DNA of 37,420 nt from Aeromicrobium sp. (lineage in GTDB: Bacteria > Actinomycetota > Coriobacteriia > Anaerosomatales > Anaerosomataceae), in contig JADIIM010000017.1 in the NCBI GenBank assembly GCA_015351705.1, positions 1 through 37,420 on the forward strand. The letters run 5' to 3'. Below, piece by piece: positions 3 through 3,885 of this stretch; within the stretch, counting starts at the first letter, position 1; every line of letters begins with the position of its first letter. The position numbers were made by a program, and so were the translations under genes. Under the pieces are notes generated by a model. That model saw nothing but the letters and a program-made list of their open reading frames with translations. It was not told where the DNA came from and searched no databases.

Positions 3-680
3 GACAGCGGACTCACCGATGAGAACGGCGAGCTGCTCTTCGAGGGGCTCGAGCCCGGTGAGTACACCGTGACCGAGACGCTCGAGGACGGCTGGACCAA
101 CACCACGCCGCTTTCGCAGGACGTGACGGTGGTCGACGGCCAGACGGCATCGGTGTGGTTCGGCAACATCGAGGAGTTCCTGCCGTACACCGAGCTCGAC
201 CTGGCGATCCTCAAGTCGGTGGACAAGCCGACGGCCGATCCGGGCGAGCTGCTCACTTACACGTTGACCTACTGGAACAATGGCGACCTGGTCGCCACCG
301 ACTTCACCATCACCGATGACTTCGACGAGCGGTATCTGACCATCGTCGATGCCGCCGGTGGGACCGTGGCTGACGGCAAGATCGTCTGGGAGCTTCCTGG
401 CCCGCTGGCCAAGGAGGACGGCAAGAAGACCATCACCTACACGGCCCGCGTGAAGAGCGAGATGCCCGACGGAACCACCAACATCGACAACGTCGTTGTG
501 ATCGAGCATCCGCGTGACGAGGACCCGTCCAACAACACCGATGACGCCCGCGTGGTGGTCAGGGTCGGCGAGCCGTTCCTGCCCTTCACCGGCGGCGAGT
601 ACCTGTTGCTGATCGGACTGGCGGCAGCGGCGGCGACAGCCGGCACGTTGCTCCGGTACCGCAGCGGCGCGGCAGTGTGA
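3..680 (+). CDS. LPxTG-anchored surface protein, C-terminal part
   Basis: The reading frame is open from the window edge, so the N-terminus is missing. The first visible residues, up to the GEYTVTET stretch, look like the end of a SdrD-B/SpaA-type beta-sandwich. A DUF11-like repeat follows (LDLAILKSVDKP to ITYTARVK), of the kind found in actinobacterial and clostridial surface adhesins. The C-terminus has the full sortase sorting signal: LPFTG, a hydrophobic segment and an RYRSG basic tail. The protein is therefore expected to be exported and covalently linked to the cell wall, probably by the sortase at 1720-2391. It converges on the zincin at 838-1404. The exact role (adhesin, pilin or S-layer-like protein) cannot be told from this fragment. 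The sorting signal is certain; the ligand is unknown. Confidence 0.9.
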   Translation, partial: DSGLTDENGELLFEGLEPGEYTVTETLEDGWTNTTPLSQDVTVVDGQTASVWFGNIEEFLPYTELDLAILKSVDKPTADPGELLTYTLTYWNNGDLVATDFTITDDFDERYLTIVDAAGGTVADGKIVWELPGPLAKEDGKKTITYTARVKSEMPDGTTNIDNVVVIEHPRDEDPSNNTDDARVVVRVGEPFLPFTGGEYLLLIGLAAAAATAGTLLRYRSGAAV

Positions 681-732
681 TGGGCGATACCGCCGTGTGA
701 TGCGGTGGTATCCAGGGGCACGTCACCTGCCA

Positions 733-765
733 GAAGGTGCGTCCGGTTCGTCCGGGCGCACCTTC
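733..765. terminator. Hairpin between convergent genes (first of two)
   Basis: A 14-bp stem with one G-U pair closes a 5-nt loop just downstream of the LPxTG gene. There is no clear T-run on either side, as is common in GC-rich genomes. It probably ends transcription of the surface-protein gene. Confidence 0.55.
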
Positions 766-780
766 GGTGTATCCGGGATG

Positions 781-817
781 CGACAAGACCCCGGGGAGGG
801 AGGCCGGGGTCTTGTCG
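781..817. terminator. Perfect 14-bp hairpin between convergent genes (second of two)
   Basis: CGACAAGACCCCGG at 781-794 is exactly complementary to 804-817, with a 9-nt loop. It lies 20 nt beyond the stop of the minus-strand zincin gene and is symmetric, so it can act as a bidirectional terminator. On the minus strand it is the likely terminator of the riboswitch-zincin transcript. Confidence 0.65.
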
Positions 818-837
818 GGTTTCCGAGGGGGTGGGTC

Positions 838-1404
838 CTACAGCGGCGGGATGTTCTCGCCCCAGTCGATGACTCCGTTGTCACGCCAGTCGAGGATATG
901 GCCGACCTCGTGGGCGATGATCGTCTCGAGCGAGCGGGTGTGCGTCGGGCTGATGATGATGCGGCCGGACTTGTAGTAGCAGATCGCCTGGTAGCCCTTG
1001 GCGTCACCGAACGTCACCGTCGAGCCCTTGAGGATCGGGTACTTGGCGATGTAGCGGTTGAGTATCGCTTGTGCTGTCGCAAGGCTGGACGGCGCGCTTG
1101 CGGTCCGTGTGGCGGTCGGCGCCTGTGTGCTCCCACCCGTGCTGACCCGGGTGGCCGTCGGCCGAGGAGCCGCGACGCGGATGACGGTCGCCGAGCGAGC
1201 GTGCGTCGCGGCCGAGAGGTCGGCCGGCTCGGCCGCGATCTTCTCGCCCACGACCGGCGCGGCGAGCTTGCTCTCGAACGTGTCCGCGTACTGGGTGGCC
1301 GACGCGTCCGGCGTCGTCACGAACCCCGCGGCAAGCGCGAGTGCGACGACGGCTGCGATACTTCCGAGGACTGCCCCGGCCCTGCGTACCTTCTTGCGCT
1401 TCAT
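838..1404 (-). CDS. Secreted HEVGH zincin-type metallopeptidase candidate
   Basis: 188 residues. It starts with a basic n-region (MKRKKVRR), a hydrophobic core and an Ala-rich cleavage region, so it is a Sec-exported protein. A low-complexity Thr/Ala/Pro linker spans about residues 70-105. The C-terminal part holds HEVGH at residues 165-169, the zinc-binding and catalytic signature of zincins. The third ligand is not obvious: Asp175 lies where snapalysin-type enzymes (HExxHxxGxxD) have theirs, but the Gly is replaced by Asp172 and only 13 residues follow, with no Met-turn. Glu183 is another candidate. The start is supported by AAGGGG about 7 nt upstream. The leader is a GEMM-I riboswitch (1495-1590). 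Position next to an LPxTG protein and a sortase suggests that it trims or releases a wall-anchored protein; that role is inferred. Confidence 0.82.
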   Translation of the reverse strand: MKRKKVRRAGAVLGSIAAVVALALAAGFVTTPDASATQYADTFESKLAAPVVGEKIAAEPADLSAATHARSATVIRVAAPRPTATRVSTGGSTQAPTATRTASAPSSLATAQAILNRYIAKYPILKGSTVTFGDAKGYQAICYYKSGRIIISPTHTRSLETIIAHEVGHILDWRDNGVIDWGENIPPL

Positions 1405-1405
1405 T

Positions 1406-1482
1406 TCGGATCGCCCCTTATCCGAGTCCTGACGCCCATCGGCCCGACTCCTCCTCTCAGGCGCAGGCGGTGTCGGGCCGAT
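1406..1482 (-). promoter_or_regulatory. Riboswitch expression platform with hairpins over the ribosome-binding site
   Basis: Between aptamer and start codon the minus strand has two hairpins. An 11-bp perfect stem pairs 1472-1482 with 1438-1448 (23-nt loop). A 6-bp perfect stem pairs 1420-1425 with 1406-1411 and puts the AAGGGG ribosome-binding site in its 8-nt loop. No T-run follows the first stem, so control of translation, or Rho-dependent termination, is more likely than simple intrinsic termination. The segment 1406-1417 can also pair with 1587-1600 upstream of the aptamer, which would bury the same ribosome-binding site. Confidence 0.55.
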
Positions 1483-1494
1483 CGTGCGTGGCTC

Positions 1495-1590
1495 GAACCT
1501 TCGGTAGTCCGGCTGCCGTGGGAGGCGGTGCCTCCGTTAGACCCGTGACTTTGCGAAGCCGACCTTTCGGCCGACCGTGCCTTTTCGGGG
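1495..1590 (-). promoter_or_regulatory. GEMM-I (cyclic-di-GMP-I) riboswitch aptamer
   Basis: Read on the minus strand, the leader shows the conserved GEMM-I blocks in order: AAAAGGCACGG, a short stem capped by a GAAA tetraloop (GGCC-GAAA-GGTC), the conserved GCAAAGTCACGGGTCTAA, a variable second stem (GGAGGC-ACC-GCCTCC), then GGCAGCCGGACTACCGA. The order, spacing and tetraloop match the c-di-GMP-I family (Rfam RF01051). Related GEMM variants bind cGAMP; the guanine thought to set specificity appears present, but I cannot fix the ligand from sequence alone. It controls the zincin gene at 838-1404. Confidence 0.88.
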
Positions 1591-1633
1591 AGCGATCCGA
1601 TGTGCGCTTTTCAAACCCTCACGTACACTGGTG

Positions 1634-1661
1634 GTATCGGCAGCGAGGACCGGTGCCTTTA
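1634..1661 (-). promoter_or_regulatory. Sigma28/WhiG-like promoter for the riboswitch-zincin transcript
   Basis: On the minus strand TAAA (1658-1661) is followed after 16 nt by GCCGATAC (1634-1641). The consensus for FliA/SigD/WhiG sigma factors is TAAA, 14-16 nt, GCCGATAA. Transcription would start near 1627 and include the whole aptamer. No sigma70-type box fits better here. Confidence 0.5.
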
Positions 1662-1668
1662 CGGTTTC

Positions 1669-1686
1669 TGTGTGATTCGTCACACA
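1669..1686. promoter_or_regulatory. Palindrome upstream of the sortase gene
   Basis: TGTGTGA-TTCG-TCACACA is a perfect 7-bp inverted repeat between the divergent zincin promoter and the sortase start. It could be an operator for a dimeric regulator or a UUCG-capped RNA hairpin. It resembles a CRP half-site pair but with a 4-nt instead of a 6-nt spacer. Confidence 0.35.
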
Positions 1687-1719
1687 TTCGCGGACACGGT
1701 GAGCGGAGAGGAGGCCGGA

Positions 1720-2391
1720 GTGACGCATGGGGCACGGCGCTGGCGGCGCGCGGCGGGCAACGTGCTGCTCGGCGTCTCTCTCGGGCTGCTCGCGTACTAC
1801 TCGCTCACCACCCTGATGGGCTGGCTCGCCCAGCGTGACCTACGGGAGCAGGTCGCCGACGTCCCGGTGTTCGTCGACGAGCGTCCGGGGCAGACCATCA
1901 CTGACGAGGGCCCGCCACTGGACTTCGACGGCTGGGAAGGCGAAGACCTCGCCTGGTGGTCCGCGCTCGCTCCCGGCGCGCCGTTCGCTCGCCTGGTCAT
2001 TCCTGCGATGGATCTCGATGCGCTGGTGGTCAACGGCGTGACGCCGGCGGACCTTCGTCGCGGTCCGGGCTGGATCGACTGGACCGACCTGCCGGGCCCG
2101 AGCGGGACGGTGGGGATCTCGGGCCATCGCACCACATACGGCGCGCCGTTCCGGAGGCTCGGCGAGCTGGCCGAGGGTGATACCATCGACCTGTTCTCGC
2201 CGTACCGGCGGTACCGGTACGAGGTGACCGCCACGCTCGTGGTCACTCCGGACCAGGTCGAGGTCGTGGCTTCGACCGAACCGCCCACGCTGACGCTCAC
2301 CGCATGTCACCCGCCGTACAGCGCGGCGTATCGGCTCGCCGTGCAGGCCGATCTTGTTGAAGTGCGGCGTCTGGAGTCCGACATCGAGTAA
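1720..2391 (+). CDS. Sortase family transpeptidase (class D/E-like)
   Basis: 223 residues from the GTG at 1720, chosen because GGAGAGGAGG lies just upstream; the longer open frame from 1600 runs back through intergenic sequence and is not supported. A basic N-terminus (RRWRR) is followed by one membrane segment (about residues 10-30), so the enzyme is membrane-anchored with its catalytic domain outside. The sortase core is visible: GISGHRTTYG contains the catalytic His, TLTACHPPYS the catalytic Cys, and the Arg of SAAYRL is the third active-site residue. The TLTACHP context is typical of actinobacterial housekeeping-like sortases. It cleaves LPxTG-type signals between Thr and Gly and links the protein to peptidoglycan or lipid II. 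The LPFTG protein ending at 680 is the obvious nearby substrate. Confidence 0.93.
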   Translation: MTHGARRWRRAAGNVLLGVSLGLLAYYSLTTLMGWLAQRDLREQVADVPVFVDERPGQTITDEGPPLDFDGWEGEDLAWWSALAPGAPFARLVIPAMDLDALVVNGVTPADLRRGPGWIDWTDLPGPSGTVGISGHRTTYGAPFRRLGELAEGDTIDLFSPYRRYRYEVTATLVVTPDQVEVVASTEPPTLTLTACHPPYSAAYRLAVQADLVEVRRLESDIE

Positions 2392-2401
2392 GGAGCACAG
2401 G

Positions 2402-3343
2402 ATGCGCGTACTGGTGACGGGCGGCGCCGGCTTCATCGGGAGCAGTCTTGTCCACGCACTCGTGGGCGGTGGGGCCGAGGTGACCGTGGTCGACGACCTG
2501 TCCACCGGCTCGATGGACAATGTGCACCCGGCGGCCGCGTTCCGCCGCCTCGACATCCTCGCCCCGGATCTGCGCGGCCTCGTCGTCGAGGCGTCGCCCG
2601 AAGTGGTCGTCCATCTCGCCGCGCAGGTCAGCGTGGCGGCGTCGATCGCCGACCCCGGGCGCGACCGGCTGATCAACGTGGAGGGCACGCGTGCGGTCGC
2701 CGAGGCGGCCGCCGCATCTGGCGCGCGCCGCGTTCTGCTCGCGTCTTCGGCAGCGGTCTACGGGGAGCCGGCCGAGCTCCCGTTGCGTGAGACCTCGCCG
2801 ACCCGCCCGGCGGTACCATACGGCTCGTCCAAGCTCGCGGCCGAGAGCGTGCTCGCAGAAGTCCTCCGGCCGGCAGCCGTGGACTTCGCCGCGCTGCGCT
2901 TCTCCAACGTCTACGGGCCTCGCCAGCGCGCGGAGGGCGAGGGCGGCGTGGTGGCCGAGTTCGCATCGCGTATGGTCACCGGCGTGACGCCGACTATCTT
3001 TGGAAGCGGCACCCAGACGCGGGACTTCATCTTCGTGGCCGATGTCGTGAGCGCGATCGTCGCGGCCGCTGAGGTGGAGGAGGCGCTCGCACTTCCGGGG
3101 CCTGACGGTCCCGCGTACAACATCTCCACCGGGCGGCCCACGTCGGTCACGATGCTCGCCGAGGGCCTGCGTGTGGCACTCCGTTACCCGGGAACGATCG
3201 AGCACGCAGAAGCGCGAGCCGGAGACGTCGAGCACAGCGTGCTCTCGCCGGAAAAGGCCGCCGAGCACCTCGGCTGGCGTGCGGCGGTCGACATGCAGCG
3301 CGGCCTGGGCGCGACCGGCGCGTGGTTCACGCATCAGCGATGA
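2402..3343 (+). CDS. NAD-dependent nucleotide-sugar epimerase/dehydratase (GalE-like)
   Basis: 313 residues from the ATG at 2402, preceded by AGGAG at 6-nt spacing and 10 nt after the sortase stop. It is an extended short-chain dehydrogenase: the N-terminal TGGAGFIGS is the glycine-rich NAD-binding loop, VVDDLSTG binds the cofactor ribose, and the active site has SSAAVYG with Y-x3-K in PYGSSK. RFSNVYGPRQ and GTQTRDFIFVADV are typical of UDP-glucose 4-epimerase or dTDP/UDP-sugar dehydratase relatives. It acts in the cytoplasm on a nucleotide sugar, probably for wall or surface polysaccharide, which fits the sortase next door. The substrate cannot be read from sequence. It ends in a 4-nt ATGA overlap with the next gene. 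Confidence 0.88.
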   Translation: MRVLVTGGAGFIGSSLVHALVGGGAEVTVVDDLSTGSMDNVHPAAAFRRLDILAPDLRGLVVEASPEVVVHLAAQVSVAASIADPGRDRLINVEGTRAVAEAAAASGARRVLLASSAAVYGEPAELPLRETSPTRPAVPYGSSKLAAESVLAEVLRPAAVDFAALRFSNVYGPRQRAEGEGGVVAEFASRMVTGVTPTIFGSGTQTRDFIFVADVVSAIVAAAEVEEALALPGPDGPAYNISTGRPTSVTMLAEGLRVALRYPGTIEHAEARAGDVEHSVLSPEKAAEHLGWRAAVDMQRGLGATGAWFTHQR

Positions 3344-3885
3344 GCACCGGGGCGCAAGACGTGGAGGCGGCACGTCTCGAGAAGCTGTACCGTGCCAAGG
3401 CCCGTGATGAGATCGAGTCGGCCGAGGCGCTCCTCGGCGAGGATGTGTTCGTTGCCGCACACGGAGACGAGTTGGCGGACGTGCTGCTGGTCAAGGGCGT
3501 GCCCGGACCGTCCGATGTCGAGGCGGGTCGCGCGCTCGCCGGCGCAGACGGTGAGGCGGCCGGCAAAGCGCTCGATGCGCTCGGCATGCCCGCGGCGCGG
3601 TTCTTCGCGTGCACACGCCCCGCGGAGGTCGATCCGGAGCTCCTGCGGCAACGGCTGCGGCTGCTGATCGAGGCGGTGGACCCGAGGACGATCGTGGCGC
3701 TCGATCGCACCGCAGGCGATGATGTCGCTGCCTCGTTCGCTGGGGTCACGCCCGCATCAGGAGTGCCGGCGAACGTGGGTGGCCGTGTCCTGCTCATCGT
3801 CGACGGGCTCGAAGCGTCGCTTGCCGACGAGGCGGCCAAGCGCCGCGTCTGGCGGCAGTTCAAGGCGCTCGGCCGGGACGACTGA
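3340..3885 (+). CDS. Degenerate uracil-DNA-glycosylase-superfamily protein
   Basis: 181 residues; the ATG at 3340 overlaps the stop of the epimerase gene (ATGA), so translation is probably coupled. The sequence follows the layout of family 4/5 uracil-DNA glycosylases. ADVLLVKGVPG stands where the family has the GEAPG motif, RALAGADG where it has GrPFvGraG, FFACTRPA where it has KCRPP, and LIEAVDPRTIVALDRTA where it has ieaidPkvivaLGrtA. The terminal KRRVWRQFKAL matches the usual end of the fold. However, the catalytic HPS motif is replaced, the acidic residue after PG is lost, and the cysteines that hold the iron-sulfur cluster are missing (one Cys in the whole protein). It is likely catalytically dead and may bind nucleic acid, nucleotide or a partner. 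The homology is from pattern memory, not a search. Confidence 0.6.
   Translation: MSTGAQDVEAARLEKLYRAKARDEIESAEALLGEDVFVAAHGDELADVLLVKGVPGPSDVEAGRALAGADGEAAGKALDALGMPAARFFACTRPAEVDPELLRQRLRLLIEAVDPRTIVALDRTAGDDVAASFAGVTPASGVPANVGGRVLLIVDGLEASLADEAAKRRVWRQFKALGRDD

Follow-up and report, generated by a model that had tools for sequence, protein, structure and literature searches.

A conserved locus in Anaerosomatales pairs a predicted secreted zincin and an LPFTG surface protein with two types of cyclic di-GMP riboswitch: a putative display/release switch

Background

The DNA considered here is a stretch of 37,420 nucleotides (hereafter the window) from Aeromicrobium sp., placed by GTDB in the family Anaerosomataceae of the order Anaerosomatales (Actinomycetota, Coriobacteriia), and corresponds to positions 1 to 37,420 of the forward strand of contig JADIIM010000017.1 (assembly GCA_015351705.1). 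Its first 2.4 kb carry the gene of a predicted secreted zincin, convergent to the gene of an LPFTG surface protein and divergent from a sortase gene (Table 1). The zincin mRNA has a class-I cyclic di-GMP (c-di-GMP) aptamer in its leader, while most surface-protein genes of this and related genomes are preceded by aptamers of class II. We propose that the locus probably acts as an inverse c-di-GMP switch for display and release, in which the surface protein is turned ON and the zincin OFF by the same signal, and in which the zincin clips the surface protein.

In this scheme the cell would export the large, adhesin-like surface protein, the neighbouring sortase would anchor it in the wall via its LPFTG motif, and c-di-GMP on the class-II-type riboswitch would turn its gene ON. 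The ligand-bound class-I aptamer would keep its own 5' end; the downstream hairpin would then form, the Shine-Dalgarno sequence would be occluded and the zincin would be OFF, while in the ligand-free leader the aptamer 5' end would invade the hairpin and the zincin would be expressed. At high c-di-GMP the cell would carry surface protein and make no protease. At low c-di-GMP synthesis of the surface protein would stop, and the secreted zincin would most likely clip the protein already on the cell.

Results

Genes and aptamer of the locus. A preliminary description, made from the letters of the window alone, had placed an LPFTG protein, an exported HEVGH protein with a GEMM-I riboswitch as its mRNA leader, and a sortase within 2.4 kb. 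All three genes and the aptamer were recovered in place; what changes is the start of the sortase, which is probably the GTG at 1720 and not position 1600, since 1600..1719 appears to be intergenic and a predicted signal-anchor helix follows 1720. The covariance model of the c-di-GMP-I aptamer (RF01051) accepts the zincin leader at full length, with all pairs standard and a score well above the cut-off of 35 bits (Table 1). This is the only c-di-GMP-I aptamer in the genome (2.07 Mb, 97% complete), which encodes 14 GGDEF domains, and its ligand is presumably c-di-GMP. Base 1 of the window is the end of its contig (G000:C26), so that the reading frame of the surface protein is incomplete. The visible part matches the Pfam families DUF11 (E 9.1e-16) and SpaA (E 1.1e-4), is free of Pro-Pro as had been remarked before, and ends in EPFLPFTGGEYLLLIGLAAAAATAGTLLRYRSGAAV, with LPFTG followed by a hydrophobic stretch and an RYRS tail; the segment LPFTGGEYLLLIGLAAAAATAGTLLRYRSGAAV contains the sorting motif, hydrophobic stretch and basic C-terminal tail by which LPXTG wall anchors are recognised. 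The sortase, the sole one of the genome, matches Pfam Sortase (E 1.3e-28, 99.7 bits against a cut-off of 26.6), while its closest NCBIfam model, class E sortase (NF033747), is matched at 101.1 bits, short of the curated cut-off of 160.

Conservation of the arrangement. We searched 61 genomes, comprising the present one and its relatives (the named records are Coriobacteriia, several of them Anaerosomatales). The zincin occurs in 46 and a c-di-GMP-I aptamer in 50 of these. Coordinates compared by hand show that the aptamer immediately precedes the zincin in 40 of the zincin-bearing genomes; of the other six, two are interrupted by the end of a contig. Among 40 loci fetched with their flanks, the order surface protein (convergent), zincin, sortase, epimerase, uracil-DNA glycosylase (UDG)-like gene and dnaK is near-universal, and about 33 further loci of the order share the arrangement of the window, surface-protein orthologues included. 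Because of this recurrence and of the link between aptamer and zincin, the arrangement of three genes and an aptamer is far beyond chance, and the layout holds through the order. The aptamer is present in every locus that has an LPFTG gene next to the zincin and a visible leader (34 of 34, the window counted). Five zincin loci have lon or a second sortase as convergent neighbour instead of the LPFTG gene, and three of them (L080, L092, L095) are also devoid of the aptamer, an association with p of about 0.001 if loci are independent, two of the three aptamer-less loci being from one family. Among the genomes searched that have no zincin, orthologues of the sortase-epimerase pair turned up on two contigs only, both of which end before the position of the zincin, which suggests that the parts of the locus are gained and lost together.

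Some loci depart from the common layout. The convergent neighbour is a lon-like protease gene in L080, L092, L094 and L095, where the LPFTG gene is missing beside the zincin; a second sortase occupies the place of the surface gene at L098:8089-8865; and L096:8728-10490 harbours two tandem zincins with one class-I aptamer each.

The riboswitch of the surface-protein gene. Rfam scans revealed a c-di-GMP-II-GAG aptamer (RF03169) directly upstream of 28 of the 31 surface-protein genes whose 5' end lies on the contig, and one of the three remaining genes is a fragment at a contig edge. In loci with a pair of surface genes, such an aptamer can precede each of the two (L067, L071). In the present genome, another contig, C38, ends within the gene that best matches the N-terminal part of the surface protein, and ahead of this gene lies a class-II-GAG aptamer (C38:10507-10593, 50.9 bits against a cut-off of 40). 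Where C38 ends and the window starts, the two have 153 bases of a repeat module in common at 97% identity; very probably both fragments belong to a single gene that was split within its repeats, a paralogue being the possible alternative. A class-II match on contig C60 was also considered as the lost start of the surface gene and rejected, as it precedes a haem-protein-like gene instead.

In all 25 class-II leaders examined, that of the present genome included, a terminator hairpin can be formed from the 3' strand of the aptamer (GGTGAGACCG / GGTGAGACCGnCCC). These hairpins range from -15 to -28 kcal/mol, have a downstream arm of the type GGnCGGTCTC and are mostly followed by a T-rich stretch, while the same 3' strand is also complementary to CGGTCACC within the aptamer. 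Because this strand is shared between aptamer and terminator, the folded aptamer should prevent the terminator, which argues strongly that the class-II switch should be an ON switch; its ligand is taken here to be c-di-GMP. Two class-II-GAG aptamers, about 600 bases apart, precede a single surface gene in L097 and L101.

The present genome has two further class-II riboswitches, at G000:C59:19425-19507 (L172) and G000:C60:8738-8825 (L171), each directly before a gene for a secreted protein with CxxCH haem motifs (a multihaem cytochrome-like protein of 464 residues and a protein of 1427 residues). As these riboswitches precede haem-protein genes, c-di-GMP or a relative may also control extracellular electron transfer in this organism.

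The leader of the zincin and its distant counterparts. Two helices of the zincin leader were compared between cognate and swapped partners in Anaerosomatales leaders from which near-duplicates had been removed, with statistics that ignore relatedness. Both P0, formed by the 5' flank with the Shine-Dalgarno region (cognate -16.2 versus swapped -13.2 kcal/mol), and the stem of the expression-platform hairpin (PH), formed by the 3' flank with the bases just before the Shine-Dalgarno sequence (-16.1 versus -12.0 kcal/mol), were found to covary (0 of 20000 permutations in each case). Complementarity also exists between the 5' flank and PH, in the loop and 3' arm of the latter (22-nt version: p 0.006). 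Folds of the leader gave nearly identical ensembles whether the aptamer core was enforced or free, and are uninformative on the direction of the switch.

A profile search of 296 genomes sampled across the phylum yielded zincin homologues in nine further genomes from other classes of Actinomycetota, and a c-di-GMP-I or c-di-GMP-I-GGC aptamer lies ahead of the zincin in five of these nine loci. A sortase is found beside the zincin in L163 and L164, the latter also with an LPYTG protein. Convergent genes encode an SdrD_B protein that terminates in EPFLPYTGG in L158 and a protein containing SdrD_B repeats in L165. In these distant leaders the pairing between aptamer 5' end and hairpin is clear (shuffle p at most 0.01 in four of the five, 0.03 in the fifth) and takes in the ligand-binding GGC. 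Folds of four of them have a long hairpin, with a loop complementary to the aptamer 5' end, and then a U-run, i.e. the normal form of a terminator; a consensus terminator scan, restricted to loops of 3-8, had missed these long-loop hairpins. In such leaders the aptamer 5' end would disrupt the terminator as long as no ligand is bound, and the terminator would form again once it is, which makes them candidate OFF switches. Because of its homology with them, the class-I switch of the window is best read as OFF as well, with moderate confidence, its own features being ambiguous.

Other c-di-GMP-I aptamers of the order precede genes for proteins of glycoside hydrolase family 26 (GH26; L043, L047, L052, L053), GH5-like proteins (L045, L048), a pectate-lyase-like protein (L046), a subtilase (L061) and an HD-domain protein (L032). 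Several genomes with c-di-GMP-I aptamers before other genes are devoid of the zincin.

The zincin as a putative peptidase. The preliminary description had called the peptidase unrelated-looking in comparison with PPEP-1 of Clostridioides difficile, and the sequence searches bear this out: the zincin matched no sequence family in Pfam, NCBIfam or PDB, M34/PPEP and snapalysin profiles included, and all of these families were rejected as candidates. Its best Pfam matches (E about 0.1) are confined to the HExxH helix, the M34 profile is absent from the matches of the window zincin (E <= 1) and of 35 relatives (E <= 10), and the PDB sequence searches returned no PPEP chain. Likewise the M7 snapalysin/aspzincin motif HExxHxxGxxD does not fit, Asp replacing Gly at the eighth motif position in nearly all of 45 aligned sequences. 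Invariant in this alignment are HExxH, a downstream Asp, the Trp and Glu of WGE and a Pro, with the Gly of WGE nearly so.

The catalytic domain comprises about 86 residues, a size that suggests a narrow substrate range, and was modelled by AlphaFold2 as helix-beta-helix with a mean pLDDT (predicted local distance difference test) of 85. Nearest in fold are minigluzincins (selecase/projannalysin, proabylysin) and SprT/Wss1-type zincins, with a best Foldseek E of 0.039 and VIA-align Z of 6-8 (up to 7.9, for 6mdx, 4qhi and 4jiu) at 15-19% identity, values that are middling according to the note of that tool; we do not count the lack of a clear match as a sign of a new fold. These proteins are archaeal or nuclear and, unlike the window zincin, without an export signal, and at Z below 8 the likeness may reflect a common minimal zincin scaffold, family identity not being implied. 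PPEP-3 (rank 39, E 1.5, probability 0.15) and an M34 relative (VIA Z 5.4) are weak matches, indistinguishable from other zincins. The Glu of WGE is a candidate for the third zinc ligand, of minigluzincin type: it is invariant in the 45 sequences but varies in the distant homologues, and the model is weak at its end (pLDDT 44-74).

Candidate cleavage sites. The motif LP[FY]T without a following G occurs 24 times in 39 related surface-protein sequences, against 1.2 expected. Most copies sit at the boundary that precedes the last DUF11 domain, as in the window, and sometimes the motif stands in tandem just ahead of the true sorting signal, e.g. EPFLPFTEPFLPFTGA in L076 and LPYTP..LPYTS..LPYTG in L164. 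The sites of the C. difficile protease are likewise repeated at the anchored C-terminus (PMC11477304). The G-less motifs could also be a relic of domain duplication.

Discussion

The proposed switch is least certain in the substrate of the zincin, the direction of the class-I riboswitch and the ligand of the GAG variant, and several observations weigh against it. P0 is the strongest covarying element in Anaerosomatales, and at face value a ligand-stabilised P1 would free the Shine-Dalgarno sequence and turn the zincin ON; the 17-nt pairing between aptamer 5' end and hairpin is no better there than with swapped partners (p 0.42), and a clear U-run after the hairpin is missing in most class-I leaders of the order. 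To our knowledge the GAG variant of class II has no verified ligand, and Weinberg et al. reportedly suggested in 2017 that c-di-GMP-II variants might recognise other signals. Finally, five zincin loci lack an LPFTG gene alongside, and that the surface protein is the substrate of the zincin is something we infer as most likely. Taken at its word, the covariation leads to a different model, in which class I is an ON switch: the ligand-free 5' flank would sequester the Shine-Dalgarno sequence in P0, ligand-formed P1 would release it, and zincin and surface protein would be made together, the zincin serving as a processing or assembly factor. Strong covariation of P0 and PH and the presence of P0 in nearly all predicted folds speak for this model, which was our first reading; it was demoted because the extended P1, needed to compete with P0 in the ligand-bound state, does not covary (p 0.97) and does not exceed shuffled partners in strength. 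Moreover, the partner of the same 5' strand in the distant homologues is a hairpin that either has a U-run or lies before the Shine-Dalgarno sequence, as expected of OFF switches, and some Anaerosomatales hairpins (L083, L086, L088) do finish in U4-U5. We therefore hold co-production to be possible, but unlikely.

The zincin might alternatively be a protease with a general role in dispersal or on the matrix, sharing its regulation with the surface protein without cutting it, in a neighbourhood that is simply a c-di-GMP surface regulon. Such a role would be in line with the secreted enzymes (GH26, GH5-like, pectate-lyase-like, subtilase) behind other c-di-GMP-I aptamers of the order, but is made doubtful by the one-to-one, convergent pairing of zincin and LPFTG gene across many genera, by the three loci that lack both LPFTG gene and aptamer, and by the very small domain. 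That the genes came together by chance and were kept so by a block of housekeeping genes next to them (epimerase, UDG-like gene, dnaK) is highly improbable, even though this block is syntenic in nearly every locus: the two cis-regulators are opposite riboswitch types for the same signal, and other classes also have the zincin with an aptamer of the same type, amid different genes, next to a sortase (L163, L164) or to a surface protein that bears a sortase signal (L158, L164). A more far-reaching variant of the proposed inverse switch, to which we give little credence at present, is that it evolved independently, with a new family of small zincins cutting LPFT-like linkers that imitate the sortase signal, and with two riboswitches that may sense different cyclic dinucleotides.

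The proposed inverse switch resembles that of C. difficile, where class I acts as an OFF switch on the protease PPEP-1 (Zmp1, CD2830) and class II as an ON switch on its substrates CD2831 and CD3246 (PMC11477304). As for PPEP-1 and CD2831, the gene of a (here predicted) secreted zinc protease adjoins that of a sortase-anchored adhesin, with class I on the protease, class II on the adhesin and probably inverse control. By contrast, the present hosts belong to a different phylum, the zincin domain of about 86 residues is recognised neither by M34 nor by other Pfam profiles, the sorting motif is LPFTG, with LPFT-like repeats instead of Pro-Pro sites, the sortase gene lies within the locus, and the class-II aptamers are of the GAG variant. 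The preliminary description had argued for a PPEP-1-like logic and for a switch between sessile and motile life. Its observations are confirmed and its interpretation is partly supported: the class-II riboswitch of opposite type on the surface gene reinforces the shared logic, whereas the direction of class I is ambiguous and the motile half is not supported. Both cultured Anaerosomatales are non-motile, unlike C. difficile, and have pili-like appendages, and one of them forms dense clusters on ferrihydrite (PMC9686372); because of this non-motility, attachment to and release from mineral surfaces fits better as the natural setting. The class-I aptamer also shares its class, RF01051, with the GEMM-I riboswitches of Vibrio and Geobacter, including variants that sense cyclic AMP-GMP, but differs from them in gene target and expression platform; ligand specificity is known to differ among variants of the GEMM-I class (PMC7266159).

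We found no earlier description of this locus, the open-licence papers searched including none that joins c-di-GMP, riboswitch and Coriobacteriia. The hosts are a little-studied order of subsurface, partly iron-reducing Actinomycetota. If the proposed switch is real, the logic known from C. difficile would not be a peculiarity of a pathogen, and would have arisen or been kept in a distant phylum with a different protease. It would assign a role to an unannotated peptidase family, provide a host in which the unassigned c-di-GMP-II-GAG variant can be tested, and raise the questions whether such a design had two origins, which features close to a sortase signal a release protease has to recognise, and by what means non-motile subsurface bacteria attached to minerals release themselves from a surface.

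Other features of the locus

The inverted repeat between the divergent zincin and sortase promoters is partially conserved, most family members having a similar element (TGTGAC...CACA), and is a possible candidate for a CRP/FNR-type operator. Further downstream, window positions 3340-3882 encode a short protein without a Pfam match that is weakly similar to family-4 uracil-DNA glycosylases (E 6e-4); this is the UDG-like gene, whose position is always between the epimerase and dnaK.

Table 1. Positions of genes and sequence elements at the start of the window
Feature	Position	Strand	Remarks
LPFTG surface protein, 3' part (SdrD_B/SpaA-like end, DUF11 domain, sorting signal)	3..680	+	Open reading frame (ORF), open at contig edge
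Internal LPYT without following G, in linker before last DUF11 domain; candidate zincin recognition site (hypothetical)	180..191	+	
LPFTG sorting motif, order-wide conserved context GEPFLPFTGG	579..593	+	
GC-rich inverted repeat between the convergent genes; probable shared terminator	781..817	+	Seen in sequence
Secreted zincin, 188 residues: signal peptide, A/T/S-rich low-complexity linker, C-terminal catalytic domain (~1098..841, predicted)	838..1404	-	
HEVGH zinc-binding motif of zincin (predicted)	898..912	-	Alignment of 45 sequences
Zincin Shine-Dalgarno AAGGGG, conserved across the order	1414..1419	-	
Expression-platform hairpin (PH); loop segment ~1464..1448 complementary to aptamer 5' end	1420..1499	-	
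c-di-GMP-I (GEMM-I) aptamer of zincin mRNA, RF01051	1500..1591	-	55.1 bits, E 2.9e-08
5' flank CGGATCGCTCCCC; can pair with Shine-Dalgarno region 1417..1407 (P0) or with PH hairpin	1587..1599	-	
Inverted repeat TGTGTGA-N4-TCACACA between divergent zincin and sortase promoters	1669..1686	.	Seen in sequence and family alignment
Sortase (Pfam Sortase; NCBIfam class E closest)	1720..2391	+	Predicted start codon; ORF 1600..2391

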